Shown in pieces: positions 14,436 to 55,150 of a stretch of DNA of 64,000 bases. This DNA is from an uncultured Eubacteriales bacterium (GTDB taxonomy: Bacteria; Bacillota; Clostridia; Christensenellales; Aristaeellaceae): positions 1 through 64,000 of the forward strand of contig OMZY01000005.1 in NCBI GenBank assembly GCA_900315675.1, given 5' to 3'. The first letter of the stretch is position 1, and each line of letters begins with the position of its first letter. Under the pieces are notes generated by a model. The model was given only the letters and a program-made list of their open reading frames with translations, was not told the DNA's origin and did not search any database. A program made the position numbers and the translations under genes.

Positions 14436-14594
14436 TGAGGCTGCGGAAACGAGAAGTTGACAGAGGGAGAATGGGCGCAGCCCAAATGAATAATTAACAA
14501 TTAACAATGCACAATTAACCGCTGCGGCGGGGAGAGGAGAACGAGATTTCCCCGCAACCTCAATCGTCGCTTCTTTTCCGCAATCTCAATGGTC

Positions 14595-14682
14595 GCAACT
14601 CCACACTGTGGAGGTTGCTCCCTTTCGATTGACCTCACCCCTGACGGAATTTCAGCCACTGGCTGCCCTCAGGGGTTCGCCC
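14595..14682. repeat. Two-hairpin element, copy 1
   Basis: Hairpin 1: GCAAC/GTTGC closing CTCCACA-C-TGTGGAG. Hairpin 2: outer CCCCTGA/TCAGGGG (14638-14644/14669-14675), linker AATTTC, inner CAGCC-ACT-GGCTG (14653-14665), followed by TTCGCCC. Other copies: within 31891-32046, 32191-32295, 42179-42282 and 47854-47958. Confidence 0.85.
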
Positions 14683-31890: not shown

Positions 31891-32046
31891 AGTCGCAACT
31901 CCCTTGCCGGGGCTGCCGCCCGTTCTCCACTGAAAACTGTCCACTGGACAGTTTTCCGGGCGTTCCGAACCCATGGAGCTTGCTCCTTTTCAGATGACCT
32001 CACCTCTGACGGAATTTCAGCCACTGGCTGCCCTCAGAGGTTCGCC
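31891..32046. repeat. Two-hairpin element, copy 2, with insertion
   Basis: Hairpin 1 keeps its ends (GTCGCAACTCC ... GGAGCTTGCTCC) but carries about 65 extra bp in the loop, including its own stem AAAACTGTCC-ACT-GGACAGTTTT (31937-31959). Hairpin 2: CCTCTGA/TCAGAGG outer, CAGCC-ACT-GGCTG inner (32012-32040). Confidence 0.8.
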
Positions 32047-32190
32047 CCACTGGGTCACCGCTTCCTTCGCTCCCCTACGGCGTAGTAAGGGATTCCTCCA
32101 CTCCACTACGTTCCGGTCGGAATGACACACTGGCCTGTGCGCTGCGGTGTTCCGGTTGGGTTCCCGAACGTGGGCGGGCGGGGAGCCTCT

Positions 32191-32295
32191 CCGCAATCTC
32201 AATAGTCGTTGCTCCACACTGTGGAGACAACTCTTTTTCGATTGACCTCACCTCTGACGAGATTTCCGCCACTGGCGGTCGTCAGAGGTTCGCCC
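32191..32295. repeat. Two-hairpin element, copy 3
   Basis: Hairpin 1 GTTG/CAAC closing CTCCACA-C-TGTGGAG; hairpin 2 CCTCTGACGA/TCGTCAGAGG (32251-32260/32279-32288) with inner CCGCC-ACT-GGCGG (32266-32278). Confidence 0.85.
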
Positions 32296-41818: not shown

Positions 41819-42599
41819 GGGCAGTGTTCTCGCAAAGCGAGAACAAATTCATAATTCATAATTCATAATTAGGATTGTCTCTTTGCAGAATGTGTTCCGG
41901 ATAGGTTGAAGGTTTAGATCTCCGGAGGAGACAGTGGGCGAAGCCCAAATGCAGAATGCATAATGCAGAATGATTCGTCCTTCGGACGTAGTAAGGGACA
42001 GTGTCGTCGCTTTGCGATGACAAATGAACAATTAACAATGAATAATGAACAATTATTCCGCCTACGGCGTAGTAAGGGATTCCTCCACTCCACTACGTTC
42101 CGGTCGGAATGACACACTGTCCTGTGCGCTGCGGTGGTCCGGTTGGGTTCCCAAACGTGTGCGGGCTGGGAGGCTCTCCGCAATCTCAATAGTCGTTGCT
42201 CCGCGCTGTGGAGACAACTCCTTTTCGTTTGACCTCACCTCTGACGAAATTTCCGCCACTGGCGGTCGTCAGAGGTTCGCCCTTCGATGCCGCTGCGCTG
42301 CGCCCAGGAGTTGACAGAGGGACGGGGTATTTGTCATCTTTTCCAAAGCGAAGGATTAACTCGGAACGGCAAAAAAGTTGACAAAAACCCCGTCCCTCTG
42401 TCAACTTCCCGCAGAGCGCTTTGGGTGTTGGAGGTAAATGGTGGTGGAGGGGAAGGAGAACAGGAATGTGACGGAAGGGACAGACACTCAGTCACATTTT
42501 CTTCGAAAACAGTGACAGAGTATCTGTCCCGCGGTCACATTCCTGCATTGCGCGGCGGGATATGGAGGTTTTATCAGACGCCGGATCATTATGAATTAA
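41819..42599. repeat. Large intergenic repeat mosaic
   Basis: Order: GTTCTCGC-AAA-GCGAGAAC hairpin, heptads (41849-41872), GTGTTCCGG and GAAGGTTTAGATC-CCGGAGGAGA modules (41891-41935), GGGCGAAGCCC, heptads, CGTCC-TTC-GGACG, GTCGTCGCTTTGCGATGAC, heptads (42022-42055), GTAGTAAGGGATTCCTCC and GGAATGACACAC modules (42069-42125), two-hairpin element (42179-42282), variant REP palindrome with long loop (42309-42412), GTGAC-family palindrome (42461-42545). No gene. Confidence 0.75.
42179..42282. repeat. Two-hairpin element, copy 4
   Basis: Hairpin 1 GTTG/CAAC closing CTCCGCG-C-TGTGGAG; hairpin 2 CCTCTGACGA/TCGTCAGAGG (42238-42247/42266-42275), inner CCGCC-ACT-GGCGG (42253-42265). Confidence 0.85.
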
Positions 42600-42991: not shown

Positions 42992-43351
42992 TTATTTCAG
43001 GCTGCTCCGGATGGCGTTGAAGGATTCTTCGGAAATATCGTGTTCGATCTTGCAGGCGTCCTTCCGGGCAATTTCCTCATCCACGCCGAGGGAGACAAAG
43101 AACTTCGTCAGGGTCAGGTGGCGGTCATAGGTGCGGCGGGCAATGGGATAGCCCTTATCGGTCAGGGAAATGAGGCCACCCTTTTCCATAGAGATGTAGC
43201 CGTTTTCCCGCAGCTTCTTCATGGCGACGCTGACGGAAGGCTTGGTCACGCCGAGGGATTCGGCAATATCCGTTGAACGGGCATATCCCTTTTCCTCCAG
43301 CAGGACAAGGATCTGCTCCAGATAGTCTTCCGCGGATTCATATATATTCAT
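42992..43351 (-). CDS. DtxR/MntR-family metal-dependent regulator, 119 aa
   Basis: N-terminal winged helix 'ESAEDYLEQILVLLEEKGYARSTDIAESLGVTKPSVSVAMKKLRENGYI' pattern and the dimerisation/metal domain with 'FFVSLGVDEEIARKDACKIEHDIS' (the usual C/E/H ligands). It is the short, MntR-like form with no SH3 domain. The six TTAG-N6-CTAA palindromes around it match the DtxR/IdeR half-site TTAG, so it is the best candidate regulator of the island. GGGAGGAT precedes the start. Located between the AraC gene and the zinc-ribbon gene in one operon. Confidence 0.9.
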   Translation of the reverse strand: MNIYESAEDYLEQILVLLEEKGYARSTDIAESLGVTKPSVSVAMKKLRENGYISMEKGGLISLTDKGYPIARRTYDRHLTLTKFFVSLGVDEEIARKDACKIEHDISEESFNAIRSSLK

Positions 43352-45841: not shown

Positions 45842-46396
45842 ATGAAAAAACTGCTTTCTATGGTTCTGGCTGTTATGATGCTGTTCTCCCTGTCCGCCGT
45901 CGCGATGGCGGAAGACGAAGCCGGTTTCGATGAATTCGAACTGGGCGTTGAAGGCGAACAGGAAGTTGGCTTCATGACCATGGCTATGGTTTACTTCCAG
46001 CCCGTTGACATGGCTCCCGTTGACCAGGCGACCGCCAAGGAAAACACGGACCTGCACATCGAAGTGGACCTGACCGCCAACGAGAACGGCTATGCCTTCC
46101 CGGTGGACCAGTGGGTGCCCTACCTGACCATTGACTTCGTGATCCGCGACACCGAAGGCAAGGAAGTGACCTCCGGTTCCATGATGCCCATGGCGGCCTC
46201 CGACGGCCCCCACTACGGCAACAACATCAAGCTGGCTGACGGCGAGTACAGCATCACCCTGTACATCAAGAGCCCGGCCGAAAACGGCTACCTGCTGCAT
46301 GTTGACTCCGAGACCGGCGTCGACGCCAAGGACGGTTTCTGGACCGAGCCCCTGGAAGCGACCTGGACCGGCTGGAAGTTCGTCAAGCAGTGGTAA
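45842..46396 (+). CDS. P19/Tp34-like periplasmic iron protein (Fe2+ transport protein family), 184 aa
   Basis: AAAGGAGG (45824-45831) precedes ATG 45842; signal peptide with cleavage after AMA. The mature part matches the PF10634 beta-sandwich: 'QEVGFMTMAMVYFQPVDM' near the N terminus with metal-binding Met/Glu positions, 'DLHIEVDLTANENGYAFP', 'PHYGNNIKLADGEYSITLYI' with the conserved His. Works with FTR1 to bind and deliver Fe2+ (or Cu2+ as a cofactor). Followed by a strong intercistronic hairpin. Confidence 0.92.
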   Translation: MKKLLSMVLAVMMLFSLSAVAMAEDEAGFDEFELGVEGEQEVGFMTMAMVYFQPVDMAPVDQATAKENTDLHIEVDLTANENGYAFPVDQWVPYLTIDFVIRDTEGKEVTSGSMMPMAASDGPHYGNNIKLADGEYSITLYIKSPAENGYLLHVDSETGVDAKDGFWTEPLEATWTGWKFVKQW

Positions 46397-46484: not shown

Positions 46485-47774
46485 TTGCTGTATTATCTCT
46501 GGAGTGTTATACAGGATCTGTTCTATACCGTCACAATCACAACGCTGATGCATGCTTTCCTGGGACGGCTGTACGGCCGGACGGGACGCCGGGAACACGC
46601 CGTCGGCCTGTGGCTGGGCGTCATTGCCGGGATTGCCCTGGCTGTGGTCAAGCAGACCACCAATAAAATCATCTCCAGTCACTGGAACCATTGGACCTAC
46701 GCTTATCTGATGGCTTTCATAGTGGCATTTTTCATGTTATCCCTTTTTCAGGGCCGGAAGGAAGGAAAGAAACCGGGCGCGGGCGGGATCTGCCTGACCG
46801 TGTGCGGCGCGGCGGTTTCCGCGGGAATGATCTTCTTCCGGCTGCCGACAGTGCTGCTGTATCCCTTCAGCTTCAACACGATGGGAAACGGCTTCTTCTC
46901 GGCCTACTACATGGAGCGGCTGGGCGGCTGGGCCCTGGCGCTTCTGCTGCTGTTCGTCTATTCGCGCTTCCTGTACGGATGCGCTGTACATATCCGGAAG
47001 TCCGCTGCACCGCGGCGGATTCTCCGCGCGGGAGTGCTTCTCTACGCGGTCTACTGCCTGGGACGGTTCTTTGTCCCGTGGATCAGCCGGGCCAGGTGGC
47101 TGGGCTGGTCTGTGAAGTACACAGAGGCTGAATACGGCTGGATCGGCTCCTTCACCATGTGGACGGCCACCAACGCCATGATCTTCATCTGGGCGGCCGC
47201 GTTCCTGGCCGCACTGCTGGCACTGCTGTTCCTGCTGGAAAACACAAAGGTGACGGAACCCTATGAGCACGCAGCGCAGCTGCGCAAGCTCCGGGCGGGC
47301 AACCGGAAACGCCGCCGCCTGGCGATCGCCACGCTGGTGATGGTTCTGCTGTTTGTGCTGACGCTGACCGTGGTGAAGGCCTACGATACCCGGGAAGTGG
47401 TGCTGTCCGCGCCGGAAAGCTATACGGTGGACGGGGACCGGATCCTGATTCCCACGGAGGCTGTGAACGACGGCCACCTGCACCGGTTTGAATACACGAC
47501 GGAGAAGAATGTGACCATCCGCTGGATTGTGGTGAAGAAGCCCAATGCCGCGACCTACGGCGTCGGCTTTGACGCCTGCGAGGTGTGCGGAAACGCCGGC
47601 TATTACGAGCGGGGCAGCCAGGTGGTCTGCAAACGCTGCGACGTGGTCATGAACATCAACACCATCGGCTTCAAGGGCGGATGCAACCCGATCCCGCTGG
47701 CCTATGAGGTGGGAGAAGGGAATCTGGTGTTCAGGCTTGAGGACCTACTCGCCGGAGAAAAGGAATTCAGATAA
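46485..47774 (+). CDS. DUF2318 Fe-S membrane protein, 429 aa
   Basis: TTG 46485 lies 7 nt after GGAGGG. About eight hydrophobic helices (residues 1-300) precede an extracytoplasmic DUF2318 domain with the metal ligands C365-x2-C368, C382-x2-C385 and C400 ('DACEVCGNAGYYE', 'VVCKRCDVVMN', 'FKGGCNPI'). Homologues sit beside FTR1/P19 (Cj1660 in Campylobacter) and are thought to pass electrons for reductive iron uptake. Confidence 0.9.
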   Translation: MLYYLWSVIQDLFYTVTITTLMHAFLGRLYGRTGRREHAVGLWLGVIAGIALAVVKQTTNKIISSHWNHWTYAYLMAFIVAFFMLSLFQGRKEGKKPGAGGICLTVCGAAVSAGMIFFRLPTVLLYPFSFNTMGNGFFSAYYMERLGGWALALLLLFVYSRFLYGCAVHIRKSAAPRRILRAGVLLYAVYCLGRFFVPWISRARWLGWSVKYTEAEYGWIGSFTMWTATNAMIFIWAAAFLAALLALLFLLENTKVTEPYEHAAQLRKLRAGNRKRRRLAIATLVMVLLFVLTLTVVKAYDTREVVLSAPESYTVDGDRILIPTEAVNDGHLHRFEYTTEKNVTIRWIVVKKPNAATYGVGFDACEVCGNAGYYERGSQVVCKRCDVVMNINTIGFKGGCNPIPLAYEVGEGNLVFRLEDLLAGEKEFR

Positions 47775-48054
47775 TTAAGAATTAAGAATTCTATGATCAC
47801 CGTTACCAAAGTTCCAATGGGAACTTTGACGGCTGTAATATGGCAACTGTATTCCGCAATCTCAATGGTCGTAACTCCACACTGTGGAGCTTACTCCCTT
47901 TCGATTGATCTCAGATCTGATGAAATATCTGCCACTGGCAGTCATCAGATCTTCGTCCCAAATCAAAGATTTGGACAGTTGCTCAACAATTCAGAATTAA
48001 TACTTCATTTCTTTCAGAAATGATGGCCTTACTGTTACAGGAGGAAGACAACAA
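47775..48054. repeat. Repeat mosaic inside the iron operon
   Basis: Heptads (47773-47791), a bulged hairpin (47800-47832; CCGT/ACGG outer, TAC bulge, CAAAGTTCC/GGAACTTTG inner), the two-hairpin element copy 5 (47854-47958) and a CAAATC...GATTTG small hairpin (47960-47975), then a heptad and AGGAGG. Both structured families are therefore transcribed as part of the iron operon mRNA. Confidence 0.8.
47854..47958. repeat. Two-hairpin element, copy 5
   Basis: Hairpin 1 GTAA/TTAC closing CTCCACA-C-TGTGGAG; hairpin 2 AGATCTGATGA/TCATCAGATCT (47913-47923/47942-47952), inner CTGCC-ACT-GGCAG (47929-47941). Most divergent copy, with all stems still paired. Confidence 0.85.
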
Positions 48055-49353
48055 ATGCTATTGCGGATGATTCGCGGCGTCCTGTTCCATCAGAAGGGAA
48101 AAATGCTGCTGATCGCGTTCACGATCGCGCTGGGGGCCAGCCTGGCCACAGGCATGCTGAACGTGATGATGGACGTCGGAGACAAGGTCAACCAGGAACT
48201 GAAGAATTACGGCGCCAATATCGTGGTGAAGCCGAAGGACTCCTCCCTGCTGTCCGACATCTATGACGTGGGAGAGGGCGGCGAGGAACTGAATACCGCC
48301 TGGCTGAACGAAGGGGACCTGGGCAAGATCAAGACGATCTTCTGGGCGTTCAACATTGTGGATTTTGCCCCCTTCCTGGACACCCAGGCCGTACTGCCGG
48401 ACGGCAGCGCGGTGAAGCTGAACGGAAGCTGGTTCAACCACCACTTGTCCCTTCCCACGGGCGAGGAACTGGACGCCGGCGTGGTCGGCATGCGTTCCTG
48501 GTGGGATGTGACGGACGGACGCTGGCTGGATGAAAAGGACGAGAACGCCAACGCGGAAATCATGGCCGGTATGACGGTGGCGCAGGCCCAGGGCTGGAAA
48601 GCGGGCGACACCGTGAAGCTGCGGGGCAGCAAGGGTGAAAAGACCGTGACCGTCGCCGGCATCTATGACGCGGGCGGAGACGAGGACGAACAGATCTTCG
48701 GCACGCTGGCCCTGGTGCAGGAGCTGACCGACCGGGCGGGCAAGGTGGCTTCGGTGGAGGTTTCCGCCATCACCACGCCGGACAACGAACTGGCGCGCCG
48801 GGCGGCCCGGAATCCCGCGGCCCTGTCCGGCCGGGACTATGAAACCTGGTACTGCACGGCGTATGTGAGCGCGATCTGTTACCAGATCCAGGAAGCCATT
48901 CCCGGATCCGTGGCCGCCGCGGTCCGCAAGGTGGCGGAAGGCGAAGGCGCGATCCTGGAGAAAACCCAGCTGCTGATGATCCTGATTACGGCGCTGAGCC
49001 TGATCGGTTCCGCCCTGGGCATCAGCAACCTGGTGACAGCCAGCGTGATGGAACGGGCGAAGGAGATCGGCCTGCTGAAGGCTATCGGCGCACGGGATCA
49101 TTCCATCACGGGCGTTATCATGACGGAAATCCTGGTCACGGCGCTGATCGGCGGCGCGGCGGGATACTTTATTGGCTTCGGATTTGCCCAGCTGATCGGC
49201 CGGAGCGTGTTCGGCGCGGCAGTTGAGATGAAACCGGCGGTGGTGCCGATCGTGGCGGGCCTGGTTGCGCTGGTGACGCTGGCGGGCAGCCTGCCGGCGA
49301 TCCGGACGGTGCTCAGGCTGAAGCCGGCCGAAGTTCTTCATGGGGGTCACTAA
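48055..49353 (+). CDS. FtsX-type ABC permease 1, 432 aa
   Basis: ATG 48055 follows AGGAGG. N-terminal membrane helix, MacB-like periplasmic core ('VWDVTDGRWLDEKD', 'AQGWKAGDTVKLRGSKGEKTVTVAGIYDAGG'), then the FtsX membrane module with 'SVMERAKEIGLLKAIGARDHSITGVIMTEILV' and a final 'IRTVLRLKPAEVLHGGH'. Corresponds to Cj1661-type permeases of the P19 iron locus. Pairs with the next permease and the ATPase at 50938. Confidence 0.9.
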   Translation: MLLRMIRGVLFHQKGKMLLIAFTIALGASLATGMLNVMMDVGDKVNQELKNYGANIVVKPKDSSLLSDIYDVGEGGEELNTAWLNEGDLGKIKTIFWAFNIVDFAPFLDTQAVLPDGSAVKLNGSWFNHHLSLPTGEELDAGVVGMRSWWDVTDGRWLDEKDENANAEIMAGMTVAQAQGWKAGDTVKLRGSKGEKTVTVAGIYDAGGDEDEQIFGTLALVQELTDRAGKVASVEVSAITTPDNELARRAARNPAALSGRDYETWYCTAYVSAICYQIQEAIPGSVAAAVRKVAEGEGAILEKTQLLMILITALSLIGSALGISNLVTASVMERAKEIGLLKAIGARDHSITGVIMTEILVTALIGGAAGYFIGFGFAQLIGRSVFGAAVEMKPAVVPIVAGLVALVTLAGSLPAIRTVLRLKPAEVLHGGH

Positions 49354-49356
49354 AAA

Positions 49357-50817
49357 ATGACAAGACGCAGAATGTTCCTGAGAATGATCACCGCCTCGCT
49401 GCTCCGGCGGCGGAGCCGGATGCTGATCGCACTGCTGTCCATCGGCATCGGCGCGACGATCCTGGCAGGCCTGGTGACAATATATGTGGACGTACCCCGG
49501 CAGATGGGCGCCCAGTTCCGCTCCTTCGGCGCGAATATGCTGCTGCTTTCCGACGAGGGAAAGAGCATGACGAAGGATCAGCTGGACGGAGCCCTGGAAA
49601 AGATTGACGCGGAACAGCTGGTGGGCGCGGCGCCCTACCGCTACGTACGGGTGGACATGACCACACGGCAGCAGTCCTTTACAGCTGCGGGTACGGACTT
49701 CAGCCAGATTACAAAGACCAGCCCTTATTTCAGCGTGGACGGCCGGTATCCGGAGAATCCCCGGGAAGTGCTGGTAGGCAAGGAAATTGCCGAAACCATC
49801 GGCGTGCGGATCGGATCGGACATGGAGCTGACCTGGCAGCCGTCCGCCGGTGAGATGACCGGCGATCCGGCAGAAGACCGGAAGCCGGGCGCGGTACTGA
49901 CCGGCAGCGCGGAGGGCTGGAGCGGCGGCAAGGTTTACGTGACCGCCCGGCTGGACAATGAATCCCGGATCGCCTCCCTGACCATTGACGCGGGAACCCA
50001 GACGCCGGAGATCGGCGGGCTGGCACAGACGGACGAAGCCTTCAATGCCCAGTTTATCGGAAAGGCGCTGCCGCTGACCCTGGGCGGGGACGTGGACATG
50101 CTCAGCGGAGCCACGGTGACCTCCACGGCGGTGGTGGACGCCCTGAACACGGCCCGGAACGCAGAAAGCAGCGTGACGGCGCGGACGGTGAAATGCACGG
50201 TGTCCGGCATCCTGACCACGGGCGGCGAGGAAGAAGCCTACGTGTTCATGAGCCTGGAGGATATGACGAACCTGACGGGTGAGGACAAGGTAGACGTGGC
50301 GGAGCTGAGCGTGAGCGCCTCGGCGGAGGAACTGGAAGCCTATACGGAACAGATTTCCGCGGAGACGGAGGGCGTCAAAGCCCGACTGGTCAAGCGGGTG
50401 ACGCGGTCCGAAACGGCGGTGCTCGGCAAACTGCAGAGCCTGGTGTTCCTGGTGACCGCGGTGGTGCTGGTGCTCACGATGATCTGCGTATCCACCACGA
50501 TGATGGCGGTTGTATCGGAACGCCGGCGGGAGATCGGCCTGCGGAAGGCGCTGGGCGCCTCCGACGGCAGTATCCGGGCGGAGTTCCTGGGCGAGGGCGT
50601 GTTCCTGGGTCTGCTGGGCGGATTGCTGGGCGGCCTGCTGGGCTTTGTGTTTGCCCAGGTGGTGAGCGTGAACGTGTTCGGTTCCTCCATCACATTCCAG
50701 CCGCTGCTGCTGCCCGCGGCGGTGATCGTATCCATCGCGGTGGCGGCCCTCAGCTGCCTGCAGCCGATCAAGCGCGCAGTGGCCATTGACCCGGCAATTG
50801 TGTTAAAAGATGAATGA
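49357..50817 (+). CDS. FtsX-type ABC permease 2 with inserted FMN_bind domain, 486 aa
   Basis: The N-terminal helix and FtsX module ('VVSERRREIGLRKALGASDGSIRAEFLGEGV') are normal. Between the core segments (about residues 175-275) is an FMN_bind-type domain: 'GGKVYVTARLDNESRIASLTIDAGTQTPEIGGLAQTDEAF' pattern followed by D247-M-L-S-G-A-T-V-T255, which fits the ApbE flavinylation motif Dxx[ST]GAT-x-[ST], so Thr255 should carry FMN. This places a covalent flavin on the outer face of an ABC permease, next to a DUF2318 redox protein. No apbE is in the window. Three bp after permease 1. Confidence 0.88.
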   Translation: MTRRRMFLRMITASLLRRRSRMLIALLSIGIGATILAGLVTIYVDVPRQMGAQFRSFGANMLLLSDEGKSMTKDQLDGALEKIDAEQLVGAAPYRYVRVDMTTRQQSFTAAGTDFSQITKTSPYFSVDGRYPENPREVLVGKEIAETIGVRIGSDMELTWQPSAGEMTGDPAEDRKPGAVLTGSAEGWSGGKVYVTARLDNESRIASLTIDAGTQTPEIGGLAQTDEAFNAQFIGKALPLTLGGDVDMLSGATVTSTAVVDALNTARNAESSVTARTVKCTVSGILTTGGEEEAYVFMSLEDMTNLTGEDKVDVAELSVSASAEELEAYTEQISAETEGVKARLVKRVTRSETAVLGKLQSLVFLVTAVVLVLTMICVSTTMMAVVSERRREIGLRKALGASDGSIRAEFLGEGVFLGLLGGLLGGLLGFVFAQVVSVNVFGSSITFQPLLLPAAVIVSIAVAALSCLQPIKRAVAIDPAIVLKDE

Positions 50818-50837: not shown

Positions 50838-50937
50838 GCACAATGATGAATGGTCAGACCTGTTTATCAGCAGGCGGTTAAAGTAATAATTCTGAATTCT
50901 TAATTCTGAATTCTGAATTAACCAAAGGAGAATGGTT

Positions 50938-51645
50938 ATGAGTCTTCTGGAATTAAAAAACATTTCCAAGATTTACGGGGACCTGAAGGCCCTGGACAAT
51001 GTGAGCATCCATGTGGATAAGGGAGAATGGGTCGCGATCATGGGACCCTCCGGTTCCGGAAAAAGCACGATGATGAACATCATCGGCTGCATGGACAAGC
51101 CGACGCTGGGCGAGGTGCTGCTGGACGGGGTGGATATCGCCCGGGAAAGCAGCAAGAAGCTGACGGATATCCGGCGGGACAAGATCGGCCTGATCTTCCA
51201 GCAGTTCCACATGGTGAACTACCTGACCGCCGTGGAAAACGTGATGGTCAGCCAGTATTACCATTCCATGCCGGACGAGCAGGAAGCCCTCGAAGCCCTG
51301 GGCCGGGTCGGCCTGCGGGAACGGGCGCACCACCTGCCCAGCCAGCTGTCCGGCGGCGAACAGCAGCGCGTCTGCGTGGCCAGGGCGCTGATCAACCATC
51401 CGGAGCTGATCCTGGCGGACGAACCCACCGGCAACCTGGATGAAGCCAACGAAAACATTGTGCTGGACCTGTTTGCCCGCCTGCACGCGGAGGGAACGAC
51501 CCTGATTGTGGTTACCCATGACCCGGAGGTGGCGGAAGCGGCTCAGCGGACCATCGTGCTGGAGCACGGCAAGGTGGCGCGGGAAGTCATCAATGAAAAC
51601 TTTGAAGCCCAGCAGAAGGAATGGGCGAAGAATCACCGGAGCTGA
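50938..51645 (+). CDS. ABC transporter ATPase (MacB/LolD type), 235 aa
   Basis: The start at 50938 is 7 nt after AAAGGAG; an ATG at 50932 is too close. Walker A 'GPSGSGKST', Q loop 'IFQQFHMVNYLTAVENV', signature 'LSGGEQQRV', Walker B 'LILADEPTGNLDE' and H-loop 'VVTHDPEVA' are intact. Partner of the two preceding FtsX permeases. Confidence 0.93.
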   Translation: MSLLELKNISKIYGDLKALDNVSIHVDKGEWVAIMGPSGSGKSTMMNIIGCMDKPTLGEVLLDGVDIARESSKKLTDIRRDKIGLIFQQFHMVNYLTAVENVMVSQYYHSMPDEQEALEALGRVGLRERAHHLPSQLSGGEQQRVCVARALINHPELILADEPTGNLDEANENIVLDLFARLHAEGTTLIVVTHDPEVAEAAQRTIVLEHGKVAREVINENFEAQQKEWAKNHRS

Positions 51646-51690: not shown

Positions 51691-52086
51691 ATGAAGAAGA
51701 ATCTGTTTGCGATCCTGCTTATGATCTTTGCGGCGGTCATCGCCGTCGGATCCGTGACGGTGCTCGGCCCCTGCGTCCATGAGGACGGGAGCAAAGGCCC
51801 CTGCGCGGATGCGGGGAAAGCCCTGCTGATTGACGGATGCGTAATGGCGATCCTCGCGATCCTGATTACGATGGTGAACAGGCGCGGCCTCCGTATGGCG
51901 CTGTTCGCGGCCGCCCTGTGCGCCGCGGTCATCGGTATCCTGCTGCCGGGCGTGCTGATGCCCCTTTGCAAAATGGACACGATGCACTGCCGCGCGGTGA
52001 TGCAGCCCTCCATGATCATTCTTTCCGGCGCGGCGGCGGTATCGGCGCTGACCGGAATCATTACGGAACGGAGCAGGAAGGCATGA
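51691..52086 (+). CDS. DUF4418 membrane protein, 131 aa
   Basis: Four hydrophobic helices with two conserved Cys-containing loops ('LGPCVHEDGSKGPCADAGKALL' and 'MPLCKMDTMHCRAVMQPSM'), the DUF4418 pattern. Found with FtsX permeases in clostridial iron/metal operons; the Cys/Met/His-rich loops suggest metal handling (inference). Its stop overlaps the next start (ATGA). Confidence 0.85.
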   Translation: MKKNLFAILLMIFAAVIAVGSVTVLGPCVHEDGSKGPCADAGKALLIDGCVMAILAILITMVNRRGLRMALFAAALCAAVIGILLPGVLMPLCKMDTMHCRAVMQPSMIILSGAAAVSALTGIITERSRKA

Positions 52087-53288
52087 AGCGGTTTTCACCG
52101 GTGTTCCGGAACCTGACAAGGAAGCCCGGACGGACCACTGCCCTGATCCTGCTGACCGCCTTCCTGGCACTGTCGCTTTTTGCGGGCACGATGGTGGTAT
52201 CCTCCCTGCGACGGGGACTGGGCAGCATGGAGAACCGCCTGGGCGCGGACATTATCGTGGTTCCGGCGGAAGCGGAATCCAAATCCAGCCTGAAGAACAT
52301 GCTGCTGCAGGGAACCATCGGTACCTTCTATATGGACGCTTCGGCGGTGGACAAGGTGCGGGAAACGGAGGGCGTCCAGAAGGCGTCCGCCCAGGTTTTC
52401 CTTTCCTCCATGAAGGCGGACTGCTGCTCCGTGAAGGTGCAGATTATCGGCTTCGATCCGGAAAACGATTTTGTGGTGAAGCCCTGGATTGCCGAGAGCC
52501 TGAACCGGCCGCTGGGCGACATGGAGATCGTGATTGGCAACCGGGTGGCAACGGACGTGGGGGAAATCTTCCGCATCTATGACCAGCGGTGCCTGGTGGC
52601 CGCGCGGCTGGCGGCGACGGGCACGGGCCTGGATACCGCGGTGTACTGCAACATGAACACCATGCACGCGCTGCTGGAGGCGGCGGAGGAAAAAGGCATC
52701 AGCCATAAGATTGACACCGGAAACGACGCGGAAGTGGTTTCCGCCATCTATGTCCGCACCCTGCCGGGGGCGGACGTCGGCCTGGTCAACAACCGGCTGA
52801 ACGGAAAGATCCGGAAGGCGACCGCTGTCCGGACCACCGGCATGCTCACGGAAGTATCGGACAGCCTGGGCGGCGTGTCCCGGACGGTGGCGGTACTGAT
52901 CGCGGCGGTGTGGATCCTGGCGCTGGTGATCCTGTTCATCGCCTTTGCCATGATGGTGAACGAGCGGCGGCGGGAGCTGGCGGTATACCGCCTGGTGGGC
53001 ATGAGCCGGAGCATGCTGTCCGGCATGATCCTGAAGGAAACAGCCCTGTGCAGCCTCGCAGGCGCGGTCTGCGGCGTGCTGCTGGGGGCACTGGCGGTTT
53101 TCCCCTTTACTACGCTGATTGAAACCAGCCTGAAGCTGCCCTACCTGGCGCCTGGCACGGGAACGGTGGCAGCCTACGCGGCGCTGGCGATCGCGGTGAC
53201 GGTGGCGGCCGGATGCGCGGCAAGCCTGCATACGGCTTCAAAGCTGAGCCGGGTGGACCCGGGCAGCACGCTGAGGGAGGGCGCCTGA
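52083..53288 (+). CDS. FtsX-type ABC permease 3, 401 aa
   Basis: Starts in the ATGA overlap with DUF4418. N-terminal helix, MacB-like core ('GADIIVVPAEAESKSSLKNMLLQGTIGTFYMD', with a Cys pair 'KADCCSVKVQIIGFD'), then the FtsX module 'NERRRELAVYRLVGMSRSMLSGMILKETALCSL'. Pairs with the ATPase that follows after 1 bp. Belongs to a second FtsX transporter in the operon. Confidence 0.9.
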   Translation: MKRFSPVFRNLTRKPGRTTALILLTAFLALSLFAGTMVVSSLRRGLGSMENRLGADIIVVPAEAESKSSLKNMLLQGTIGTFYMDASAVDKVRETEGVQKASAQVFLSSMKADCCSVKVQIIGFDPENDFVVKPWIAESLNRPLGDMEIVIGNRVATDVGEIFRIYDQRCLVAARLAATGTGLDTAVYCNMNTMHALLEAAEEKGISHKIDTGNDAEVVSAIYVRTLPGADVGLVNNRLNGKIRKATAVRTTGMLTEVSDSLGGVSRTVAVLIAAVWILALVILFIAFAMMVNERRRELAVYRLVGMSRSMLSGMILKETALCSLAGAVCGVLLGALAVFPFTTLIETSLKLPYLAPGTGTVAAYAALAIAVTVAAGCAASLHTASKLSRVDPGSTLREGA

Positions 53289-53289
53289 G

Positions 53290-53961
53290 ATGGAACTGAG
53301 AGCGGAAAACATCTCCCGCCGGTATTTCCGGAAACGGGGAGAAGCAAACTTCTTTGAAGCGGTAAAACCGGGATCCCTGATCCTCCGGAGCGGGGAGATG
53401 ACCGTGCTGAAGGGCAGGAGCGGATCAGGCAAGACCACGCTGCTGCATATGCTGGCAGGACTGCTGCAGCCTTCGGAAGGAAGGGTGCTGCTGGGGGATA
53501 CGGACCTGTACGCGCTGGAAGACAACCAGTTATCCAGGCTGCGCAATGAAAAAATCGGTGTGATTCCCCAGGGACGCAGCGCCGTGGATACGCTGACGGT
53601 TTATGAAAATATCGTCCTGCCGGGAATACTGTATGGCGGTATGCCCCGGACGGAGGCAGCAGAAGGCTGGATGGAAGCTCTGGACATCAGCAGCCTGCGG
53701 GACGCGATGCCGGCGGAACTCTCCGGAGGCGAACTGCGCCGGATGGCTATCGCACGGACGCTGACGGCCGATCCGGCCGTGATCCTGGCGGATGAACCCA
53801 CCGGGGACCTGGACAACGAGAATACGGAAATTGTGCTGAACGCATTGAAGCAGGCGGCCAAGGCCGGCAAAGCGGTGCTGGTTGTCAGCCATGAAGATGA
53901 CGCGGAAGCTTTTGCCGACCGGGTGCTGCATATGGAGAACGGAAACCTGACGGAAAGCTGA
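53290..53961 (+). CDS. ABC transporter ATPase (second FtsX system), 223 aa
   Basis: Walker A 'GRSGSGKTT', signature 'LSGGELRRMAIARTL', Walker B 'VILADEPTGDLDNEN', H-loop 'VVSHEDDA' intact. Q loop is 'VIPQGRSAVDTLTVYENI', slightly unusual. Last gene of the FTR1 operon. Confidence 0.93.
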   Translation: MELRAENISRRYFRKRGEANFFEAVKPGSLILRSGEMTVLKGRSGSGKTTLLHMLAGLLQPSEGRVLLGDTDLYALEDNQLSRLRNEKIGVIPQGRSAVDTLTVYENIVLPGILYGGMPRTEAAEGWMEALDISSLRDAMPAELSGGELRRMAIARTLTADPAVILADEPTGDLDNENTEIVLNALKQAAKAGKAVLVVSHEDDAEAFADRVLHMENGNLTES

Positions 53962-54137: not shown

Positions 54138-54737
54138 ATGTCCGATGAAACCGTGATCCGCTGCTGCGCGCCCACGCTGGCCGCCATCAAAACCGGCAGC
54201 CTTTTCAACAGTCCGTTTGAAAGCCGGGAAGAGATGACCGCCAGCCTGCGGGCAATCAACAGGAGCCTGATTCCGAAGGGCGTATGCGCGCTTCCGCTGC
54301 GGTATGAGAATGGAAAAGCACTGATTTACCTTTACCGTCCGTCCATGCTGAAGGAGGATCTGAAGCATCCGGTGGCGGAGGACATCCTGAAGGACGCCGG
54401 CTATCCGGAGGGCAGTGCCGCCGGGCACATTGCCTGGCTGATCCGCCGGCTGAAGGAAGCGGAAACCTTTCCCCATGAGATCGGCCTGTTCCTCGGCTAT
54501 CCGGCAGTGGACGTGCGGGGATTCATCCGGCAGGAAGAATGCAAATGCACCGGCCTGTGGAAGGTATACGGGAGCGACCCGGACCAGGCACAGAGAACCT
54601 TTGCGCGGTGCAGGCGCTGCACAAAGGCTTACCTGCAGCGCAGAAAGGAAGGATGGGATCTGTCGAGGCTGGCAATCCGGCCGGGACAGTTTTCATACAG
54701 TGAAGCCGAAAGGCTGGAAAGGAAGGAAACCACATGA
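54138..54737 (+). CDS. DUF3793 protein, 199 aa
   Basis: GAAGGAG precedes ATG 54138. DUF3793 signatures: N-terminal 'CCAPTLAAIKTGSLF', 'LRYENGKALIYLYRPSML', 'PHEIGLFLGYPAVDVRGFI', 'CKCTGLWKVYGS' and a Cys pair 'FARCRRCTKAY'. The family is common in iron-limited clostridial loci next to flavodoxin; its biochemical role is not known to me. ATGA overlap with the flavodoxin gene. Confidence 0.9.
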   Translation: MSDETVIRCCAPTLAAIKTGSLFNSPFESREEMTASLRAINRSLIPKGVCALPLRYENGKALIYLYRPSMLKEDLKHPVAEDILKDAGYPEGSAAGHIAWLIRRLKEAETFPHEIGLFLGYPAVDVRGFIRQEECKCTGLWKVYGSDPDQAQRTFARCRRCTKAYLQRRKEGWDLSRLAIRPGQFSYSEAERLERKETT

Positions 54738-55150
54738 GTAAAATCGCGGTGATCTACTGGAGCGGCACCGGCAACACGCAGGCGATGGCCGAAGCGGTTG
54801 CGGCAGGCGCGAAGGAAGCCGGCGCGGAAGCGGATCTGCTGACCTGCGCGGACGTGAGCGACATTTCCGCCTACGACGCGGCGGCCCTGGGCTGCCCGGC
54901 CATGGGCGCGGAAGAACTGGAAGACAGCGAATTCCTGCCGATGCTGGAAAGCATTGAGCCGGCGCTGGCCGGAAAGAAGGTCGCGCTGTTCGGCTCCTAC
55001 GGCTGGGGCGACGGCGAATGGATGCGCTCCTGGGAAGCCCGCTGCGCGGACAAAGGCATTACCCTGGCTGTGACCAGCGTAATGGCGAATGAGGCTCCGG
55101 ATGACGCGGCTGTGACAGCCTGCAAGGAGCTGGGTAAAGCACTGGCATAA
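54734..55150 (+). CDS. Flavodoxin, 138 aa
   Basis: FMN phosphate-binding loop 'YWSGTGNTQAMAEAV', the 60s loop around 'GCPAMGAEELED' and 90s loop 'FGSYGWGDGEWMRSW' are classic short-chain flavodoxin motifs. Likely replaces ferredoxin under iron limitation, in keeping with its operator. Confidence 0.95.
   Translation: MSKIAVIYWSGTGNTQAMAEAVAAGAKEAGAEADLLTCADVSDISAYDAAALGCPAMGAEELEDSEFLPMLESIEPALAGKKVALFGSYGWGDGEWMRSWEARCADKGITLAVTSVMANEAPDDAAVTACKELGKALA

Follow-up and report, generated by a model that had tools for sequence, protein, structure and literature searches.

An RnfG-like FMN_bind Domain Inserted in an FtsX-Type Permease of a P19/FTR1 Iron Cluster of an Uncultured Eubacteriales Bacterium

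Introduction

The P19/FTR1 iron cluster is widespread, and its first six genes were reported in 33 of 33 diverse species; the seventh encodes a thioredoxin or an FMN-binding protein (PMC6083913). FMN-binding genes have been linked to 260 P19 clusters (PMC8238504). The DUF2318 protein of the system (FetA) carries the cysteine motif CxxC-x13-CxxC-x14,15-C (PMC6083913). Growth of Campylobacter under low iron requires each of fetA, fetB, fetC and fetD; the authors call the job of FetBCD unclear and suggest FetBCD together with FetA as the source of redox power for FetMP (PMC10783030). A comparable arrangement is found in Bifidobacterium breve, where sifE is an FMN_bind gene beside FtsX permeases; transposon mutants in sifE and apbE are sensitive to iron chelation (PMC5449479). 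The ApbE flavinylation motif is D-x-x-[S/T]-G-A-[S/T], and FMN is carried by its last residue (review PMC12052999).

Gene Cluster

The locus lies in a 64,000-nt stretch of DNA, here called the window, and coordinates are positions in it unless another stretch is named (Table 1); G000 is the window's own genome. The features of a fetMP-fetABCD system are present, with FTR1 and P19 at the head and two FtsX permeases and an ATPase in order. As the first six genes follow the Campylobacter order, the 486-aa permease occupies the FetC position. An earlier note, made from the bare sequence, had placed this permease beside FTR1, P19 (Iron_transport) and an FtrD-like/DUF2318 protein, and all three were matched by Pfam.

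Table 1. Features of the iron cluster and its surroundings in the window.
Feature	Coordinates	Strand	Basis
DtxR/IdeR-type iron-dependent repressor, upstream of cluster	42992..43351	-	Fe_dep_repress 59.4 bits, Fe_dep_repr_C 50.5 bits
FTR1 iron permease (FetM-like), 590 aa	43971..45743	+	PF03239, 122.8 bits
P19/Iron_transport protein (FetP-like)	45842..46396	+	PF10634, 155.9 bits
DUF2318/FtrD-like membrane protein (FetA-like), start codon uncertain	46485..47774	+	PF10080, 101.9 bits
FetB-like permease without insert	48055..49353	+	Pfam FtsX and MacB_PCD
FetC-type FtsX permease with inserted FMN_bind domain, 486 aa	49357..50817	+	ORF, Pfam FtsX and FMN_bind, whole-model fold
RnfG-like FMN_bind domain, residues 176-276, inserted in extracellular part	49882..50184	+	Pfam, profile, fold
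ApbE flavinylation motif D247-M-L-S-G-A-T253	50095..50115	+	sequence, conservation, published motif
ABC ATPase (FetD-like)	50932..51645	+	ABC_tran, 119.4 bits
DUF4418 protein, accessory module	51691..52086	+	PF14387
Third FtsX-type permease, accessory module	52083..53288	+	Pfam
Second ABC ATPase, accessory module	53290..53961	+	Pfam

A separate seventh gene is absent in the window, where a DUF4418 gene comes after the ATPase gene. The module of DUF4418, FtsX permease and ATPase genes (51691-53961) follows 25 of the 32 fused clusters (those with the domain inside FetC) of the family survey given below; parts of it also flank Fet clusters of other families (L177-L182). Just past the cluster, a DUF3793 gene is followed by a flavodoxin gene (54138-55150).

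Two dispersed repeats were also noticed. Short arrays of AATTCTG and its variants are found at 183, 20297, 27486, 31579, 41846, 47773 and 50888, the unit having 27 matches (up to two mismatches, both strands) against 0 expected; the arrays at 47773 and 50888 sit in intergenic gaps of the iron cluster. A 107-nt repeat comprises one reference copy and four others at 70-83% identity (14576-14682, 31941-32047, 32189-32295, 42176-42282 and 47852-47958), and the last of these falls within the 280 bp that separate the DUF2318 gene from the first permease.

The Inserted FMN_bind Domain

The presence of an FMN_bind domain inside the FtsX-type permease is confirmed. Pfam assigns residues 365-479 to FtsX (74.9 bits) and residues 190-266 to FMN_bind (PF04205), both above the Pfam cut-offs and the latter with 36.8 bits against a curated value of 22, which bears out the FMN_bind-like region proposed earlier for the extracellular part; an FMN_bind search across the genome returned the same place with 40.2 bits. 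The stretch of residues 165-281 is 117 aa long in the window and 114-139 aa among fused members; L043, an unfused relative, has 17 aa there. A frame or assembly artefact joining two genes is ruled out, as the same frame of 483-539 aa recurs next to the ATPase gene at 104 loci, 89 of them distinct.

The domain resembles RnfG. Its sequence profile, run against PDB sequences, matches 9eri_G, RnfG of the Rnf complex from Acetobacterium woodii, with E 3e-07. The model of the isolated domain (pLDDT 82.9, pTM 0.75) has RnfG chains as all three of its top Foldseek matches (TM-score by query 0.70, 0.66 and 0.67), the best being again 9eri_G (0.70, 2.4 Å). The domain-only search gave no match at E 0.001 or better, its best being 1.1e-3; with that E value, the prediction agrees with the FMN_bind fold that the earlier reading had expected. 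In NCBIfam the insert matches RnfG models only, all below curated cut-offs, and the whole-protein score of the permease with TIGR01947 (RnfG) is 33.9 bits against a cut-off of 102. The permease is therefore not an RnfG subunit, since the FMN_bind part alone is shared.

Within the same genome, the insert comes closest to repeats in a multi-flavin protein encoded on contig C53 (72.0-73.3 bits); next are a domain of a 722-aa frame (54.4 bits) and the RnfG portion of a fused RnfD-RnfG protein (49.2 bits). The genome's own Rnf operon is on another contig than the permease. Several unusual flavin proteins were noticed on the way. A 1134-aa protein in G000:C53:70000-84000 (L204:4561-7965, minus strand) joins several FMN_bind repeats, four of which pass alone, with a domain of cytochrome c552, the NrfA-type nitrite reductase; it is possibly a flavinylated nitrite reductase, and its gene adjoins the Rnf operon and, by eye, two cytochrome c assembly-like genes. 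RnfD and RnfG are joined in one 519-aa protein of the same contig (G000:C53, L204:10095-11654, minus strand; NQR2_RnfD_RnfE and FMN_bind). A 565-aa ORF in another stretch (L094:19443-21137, minus strand), which runs to the end of that stretch, joins an N-terminus that by eye resembles an OmpH/Skp-type chaperone to FMN_bind repeats.

The ApbE-type motif described in the earlier note is present as D-M-L-S-G-A-T at residues 247-253. All 46 fused permeases in the alignment keep D247, G251, A252 and T253, so the motif is not a product of chance, an origin ruled out also by the Pfam and RnfG-profile matches. The predicted flavin site is T253 (codon 50113-50115) and not T255, the residue named in that note, because the published motif puts FMN on its last residue; T255 is replaced by serine in 10 of the 46 proteins.

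Distribution and Origin of the Fusion

A DUF2318 match was found in 48 of 120 genomes of the family, above the cut-off in 41. Forty stretches were fetched, of which 33 yielded FetC; two that ended before FetC and five with DUF2318 in other contexts were set aside. The insert is present in 32 of the 33 FetC proteins, the exception being L043. Two of the four genomes of the window's genus in the family sample have no DUF2318 gene; the genus can thus do without the system, which counts against the functional explanation preferred below. A further set of named genomes comprised the best 80 of 540 relatives, picked by likeness to a query alignment that was itself mostly fused (33 of 34 rows); by their titles they are mostly Clostridia assembled from ruminants. 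Within these best 80, the insert is present at all 80 loci and the form D-x-x-[S/T/A]-G-A-[S/T] at 79, the exception being L145.

With L186 (see below), the family survey and the best 80 of 540 give at least 114 fused loci, 97 of them distinct. The motif is kept in its strict form, D-x-x-[S/T]-G-A-T, in 94 of the 97 distinct permeases, which upholds its conservation among orthologues; L045 and L161 have alanine at the fourth position, and the motif end is lost in L145. In the last case (L145:7072-8532, from a single metagenome assembly), an internal deletion of the fused FetC removes the end of the flavinylation motif. These three departures from the motif count against that explanation as well.

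In samples drawn beyond the family, DUF2318 matches came from 55 of 398 genomes of the phylum (E 1e-12), 36 of 391 of the class (E 1e-20) and 11 of 297 of the order (E 1e-20). Long Fet-type places, with a frame of at least 400 aa, were fetched from the phylum (14) and the class (7), together with two shorter class places and three order places, 26 stretches altogether; L183, L184, L185 and L187 were left out, having no complete FetC. L186 is fused and belongs to the window's genus. The unfused clusters number 22 including L043, with FetC proteins of 372-400 aa. A profile of the fused permease, run against the same 398 phylum genomes, found 13 other genomes at E 1e-40 or better, none with the insert; each match runs from residue 275-279 or so to 486, and in four genomes about residues 1-160 are matched as well. 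The fusion as a phylum-wide feature of such clusters is thus ruled out for this sample.

In a tree of FetB, all 34 rows labelled as fused form one clade with support 100/99; one of them, L044, bears the label though its FetC lies off the contig. L043 is sister to this clade, and the 20 other unfused rows are outside it. The L043 assembly is a metagenome-like draft, 87% complete, and the other sampled member of its genus, L048, is fused; L043 may for these reasons represent a contig that was acquired or misplaced, and not the ancestral state. Whatever its status, one insertion explains the sampled data.

ApbE and Free FMN_bind Genes

The genome encodes one ApbE above the cut-off (G000:C48:175492-176316, 294.2 bits), with an N-terminus that by eye resembles a lipobox-bearing lipoprotein; one further weak match is below the cut-off. 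With the window's genome counted in, the family survey has 33 genomes whose FetC is fused; ApbE is above the cut-off in 32 of them, so that apbE, on whose presence the earlier proposal depended, is found with the fusion. The lone miss is G079, which is 72% complete, and in G038 the match is split in two, one of the pieces containing stops. ApbE is uninformative as a specific correlate of the fusion: it is present in 110 of the 120 family genomes, and for this reason represents a necessary condition rather than a correlation.

Directly after the ATPase gene, 13 of the 22 unfused clusters carry a free FMN_bind ORF (140-233 aa), which starts -55 to +413 nt from the end of that gene. The profile of free FMN_bind proteins was built from 10 of these 13, and L177, L180 and L188 were recovered with it afterwards. 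In the other nine unfused clusters the ATPase gene has no FMN_bind neighbour, which counts against the preferred explanation. Behind one unfused Fet cluster lies a small ORF (L171:8528-8800) that by eye resembles a lipoprotein and has two CxxCH motifs, perhaps a cytochrome in the redox slot. Of 84 fused loci (71 distinct) whose downstream sequence extends for at least 3 kb, none has a free FMN_bind ORF of up to 250 aa within 3 kb; eight of them (five distinct) have an FMN_bind protein of 837-1010 aa about 2.5-2.7 kb away on the opposite strand.

Pfam FMN_bind was confirmed in nine of nine free proteins scanned. The best NCBIfam flavoprotein model is PplA in eight of the nine and RnfG in the two-domain protein of L163, all below curated cut-offs. 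A simple fusion of the neighbouring free gene is not supported, the free genes being mostly PplA-like and the insert RnfG-like, by scores below curated cut-offs, and the insert having its nearest relatives within the genome in the multi-flavin protein of contig C53. For the same reason the role was apparently taken over rather than the old gene moved, and the insert looks like a functional replacement of the free FMN_bind protein by another subtype. We infer that the free protein and the insert would do the same job.

Proposed Role of the Permease

FetC probably contains an electron carrier, flavinylated by ApbE, that serves FTR1/P19 iron uptake through a LolCDE/MacB-like complex. In favour of this are the FMN_bind score, the likeness to RnfG, the conserved motif, the single fused clade, the distribution of the free gene, the lipoprotein-like ApbE and the invariant DUF2318 cysteines, together with the iron phenotypes described for Campylobacter fet genes and for sifE and apbE of Bifidobacterium breve. 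The internal RnfG-like domain, lying outside the membrane, would stand in for the separate exported redox partner of many relatives. ApbE of the same genome would attach FMN to T253, electrons may travel by way of the flavin between FetA, the DUF2318 protein rich in cysteine, and the iron at P19/FTR1, and FetBCD could use ATP to move the extracellular domains of FetC.

The model of the full permease (pLDDT 79.5, pTM 0.49) has one helix, a large extracellular part and then further C-terminal helices. An FtsX domain and an extracellular part after the first helix are features of LolCDE/MacB-like ABC permeases (type VII ABC systems), and both are present. The pTM of this model and the Foldseek E value of the domain count against the explanation above. 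A structure search places chains of LolCDE and MacB nearest, with the haem exporter HrtBA lower in the list. Such neighbours would suit a FetBCD that acts as an ordinary exporter or extractor of haem, a chelator or a lipoprotein, its FMN_bind domain being structural and without a redox role. That FetBCD is such a transporter is highly improbable, given the conserved flavinylation motif, the absence of a free flavin gene from fused loci and the conserved iron-uptake neighbours.

The counterpart of the flavin within the cluster would be the DUF2318 protein, in which C365, C368, C382, C385 and C400, spaced as in the published cysteine motif, are invariant in 57 of 57 aligned proteins. No histidine of its transmembrane part is conserved at 85% or more, so a path through haem there is not indicated; this counts against the explanation above. 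The invariant cysteines would also fit a flavin domain without contact to iron, one that keeps the CxxC cysteines of DUF2318, or an Fe-S cluster, in one redox state. The gene slot that holds either thioredoxins or FMN-binding proteins is in line with this arrangement (PMC6083913). The thioredoxin-like proteins of Proteobacterial clusters may act in that way. Flavin domains of the FMN_bind type, however, are electron carriers that are not known as disulfide reductants; a role confined to cysteine redox state is unlikely.

If the flavin of FetC carries electrons to or from the iron site, their direction is the next question, and we lean slightly towards reduction at the iron. Authors who have treated Fet clusters and flavinylation mostly favour a supply of reducing power (PMC8238504, PMC6083913, PMC10783030). 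The reduction of ferric iron, as put forward in the earlier note, is not supported as stated. The FTR1/Ftr model in print is one of ferrous oxidation; it is ferroxidase-coupled and uses only Fe2+ (PMC11966278). Ferrous oxidation at FTR1/P19 is a serious alternative, if a less than probable one: FTR1-type permeases transport iron that is oxidised on the spot, and the FetC flavin would accept electrons from Fe2+ there and pass them to FetA or a membrane pool. Campylobacter FetE and FetF, encoded in the same gene slot, may be oxidases (PMC10783030), and the DUF2318 domain is FtrD-like in Pfam. By our own reasoning, an anaerobe would need an acceptor other than oxygen, for which a flavin is suited; the status of the host as a strict anaerobe, however, is taken from its relatives.

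The reading of FetC as a flavinylated electron carrier can be extended, on doubtful ground, to the whole complex. FetBCD might be an ATP-driven electron-delivery machine in which, with every ATP cycle, a covalently flavinylated arm of FetC swings between DUF2318/FetA and the P19/FTR1 iron site, moving electrons and not a substrate.

Comparison with Known Systems

The link between flavin proteins and P19 clusters is already in print; the present analysis adds how the domain is fused into the permease and that these clusters lack the free gene. The terms 'permease', 'ABC transporter' and 'FtsX' are absent from the main text of PMC8238504, whose supplementary P19 tables may hold such proteins as rows; 'ABC', 'permease' and 'FtsX' are absent from the main text of PMC11334425, and 'ABC' and 'permease' from that of PMC12052999. 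Among the literature matches listed, covering titles and the starts of abstracts with supplements and most subscription papers aside, the permease fusion was not found described. We know of no covalently flavinylated ABC permease, and none is among those matches; if flavinylated, FetC would be the first to our knowledge. The insertion into FetC, with the free flavin gene absent, would be natural evidence that the redox step takes place at the extracellular face of the ABC complex, and it turns the question of FetBCD into a test of one residue (T253) in one polypeptide.

RnfG, the FMN-carrying subunit of the Rnf complex, is like the inserted domain in profile, fold and ApbE motif. The domain in the window, however, is grafted into an ABC permease that stays below the RnfG whole-protein cut-offs. 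The free FMN_bind proteins of other P19 clusters share Pfam FMN_bind and a motif of the type D-x-x-[S/T/A]-G-A-T or a close variant; they are mostly PplA-like and lipoprotein-like, and separate, while the domain in the window is part of a transporter. LolCDE and MacB have the same layout, an FtsX permease in which one helix precedes a large extracellular part and C-terminal helices follow it, and the window's permease differs from them in the flavin-type domain of its extracellular part.

In the bfeUO-sifABCDE cluster of Bifidobacterium breve, which has an iron phenotype, an FTR1-family permease is accompanied by two FtsX permeases, an ATPase and an FMN_bind protein (PMC5449479); its FMN_bind protein, SifE, is separate, whereas in the window the domain is within FetC. 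The closest match in gene order is the fetMP-fetABCDEF (P19-FTR1) cluster of Campylobacter and other phyla, with the same succession of FTR1, P19, DUF2318, permease, permease and ATPase (PMC6083913). That cluster has a separate seventh gene for a thioredoxin or an FMN-binding protein, in place of which the window has FMN_bind inside FetC. The window's cluster is thus a variant, and not a typical member, of the fetMP-fetABCD system.
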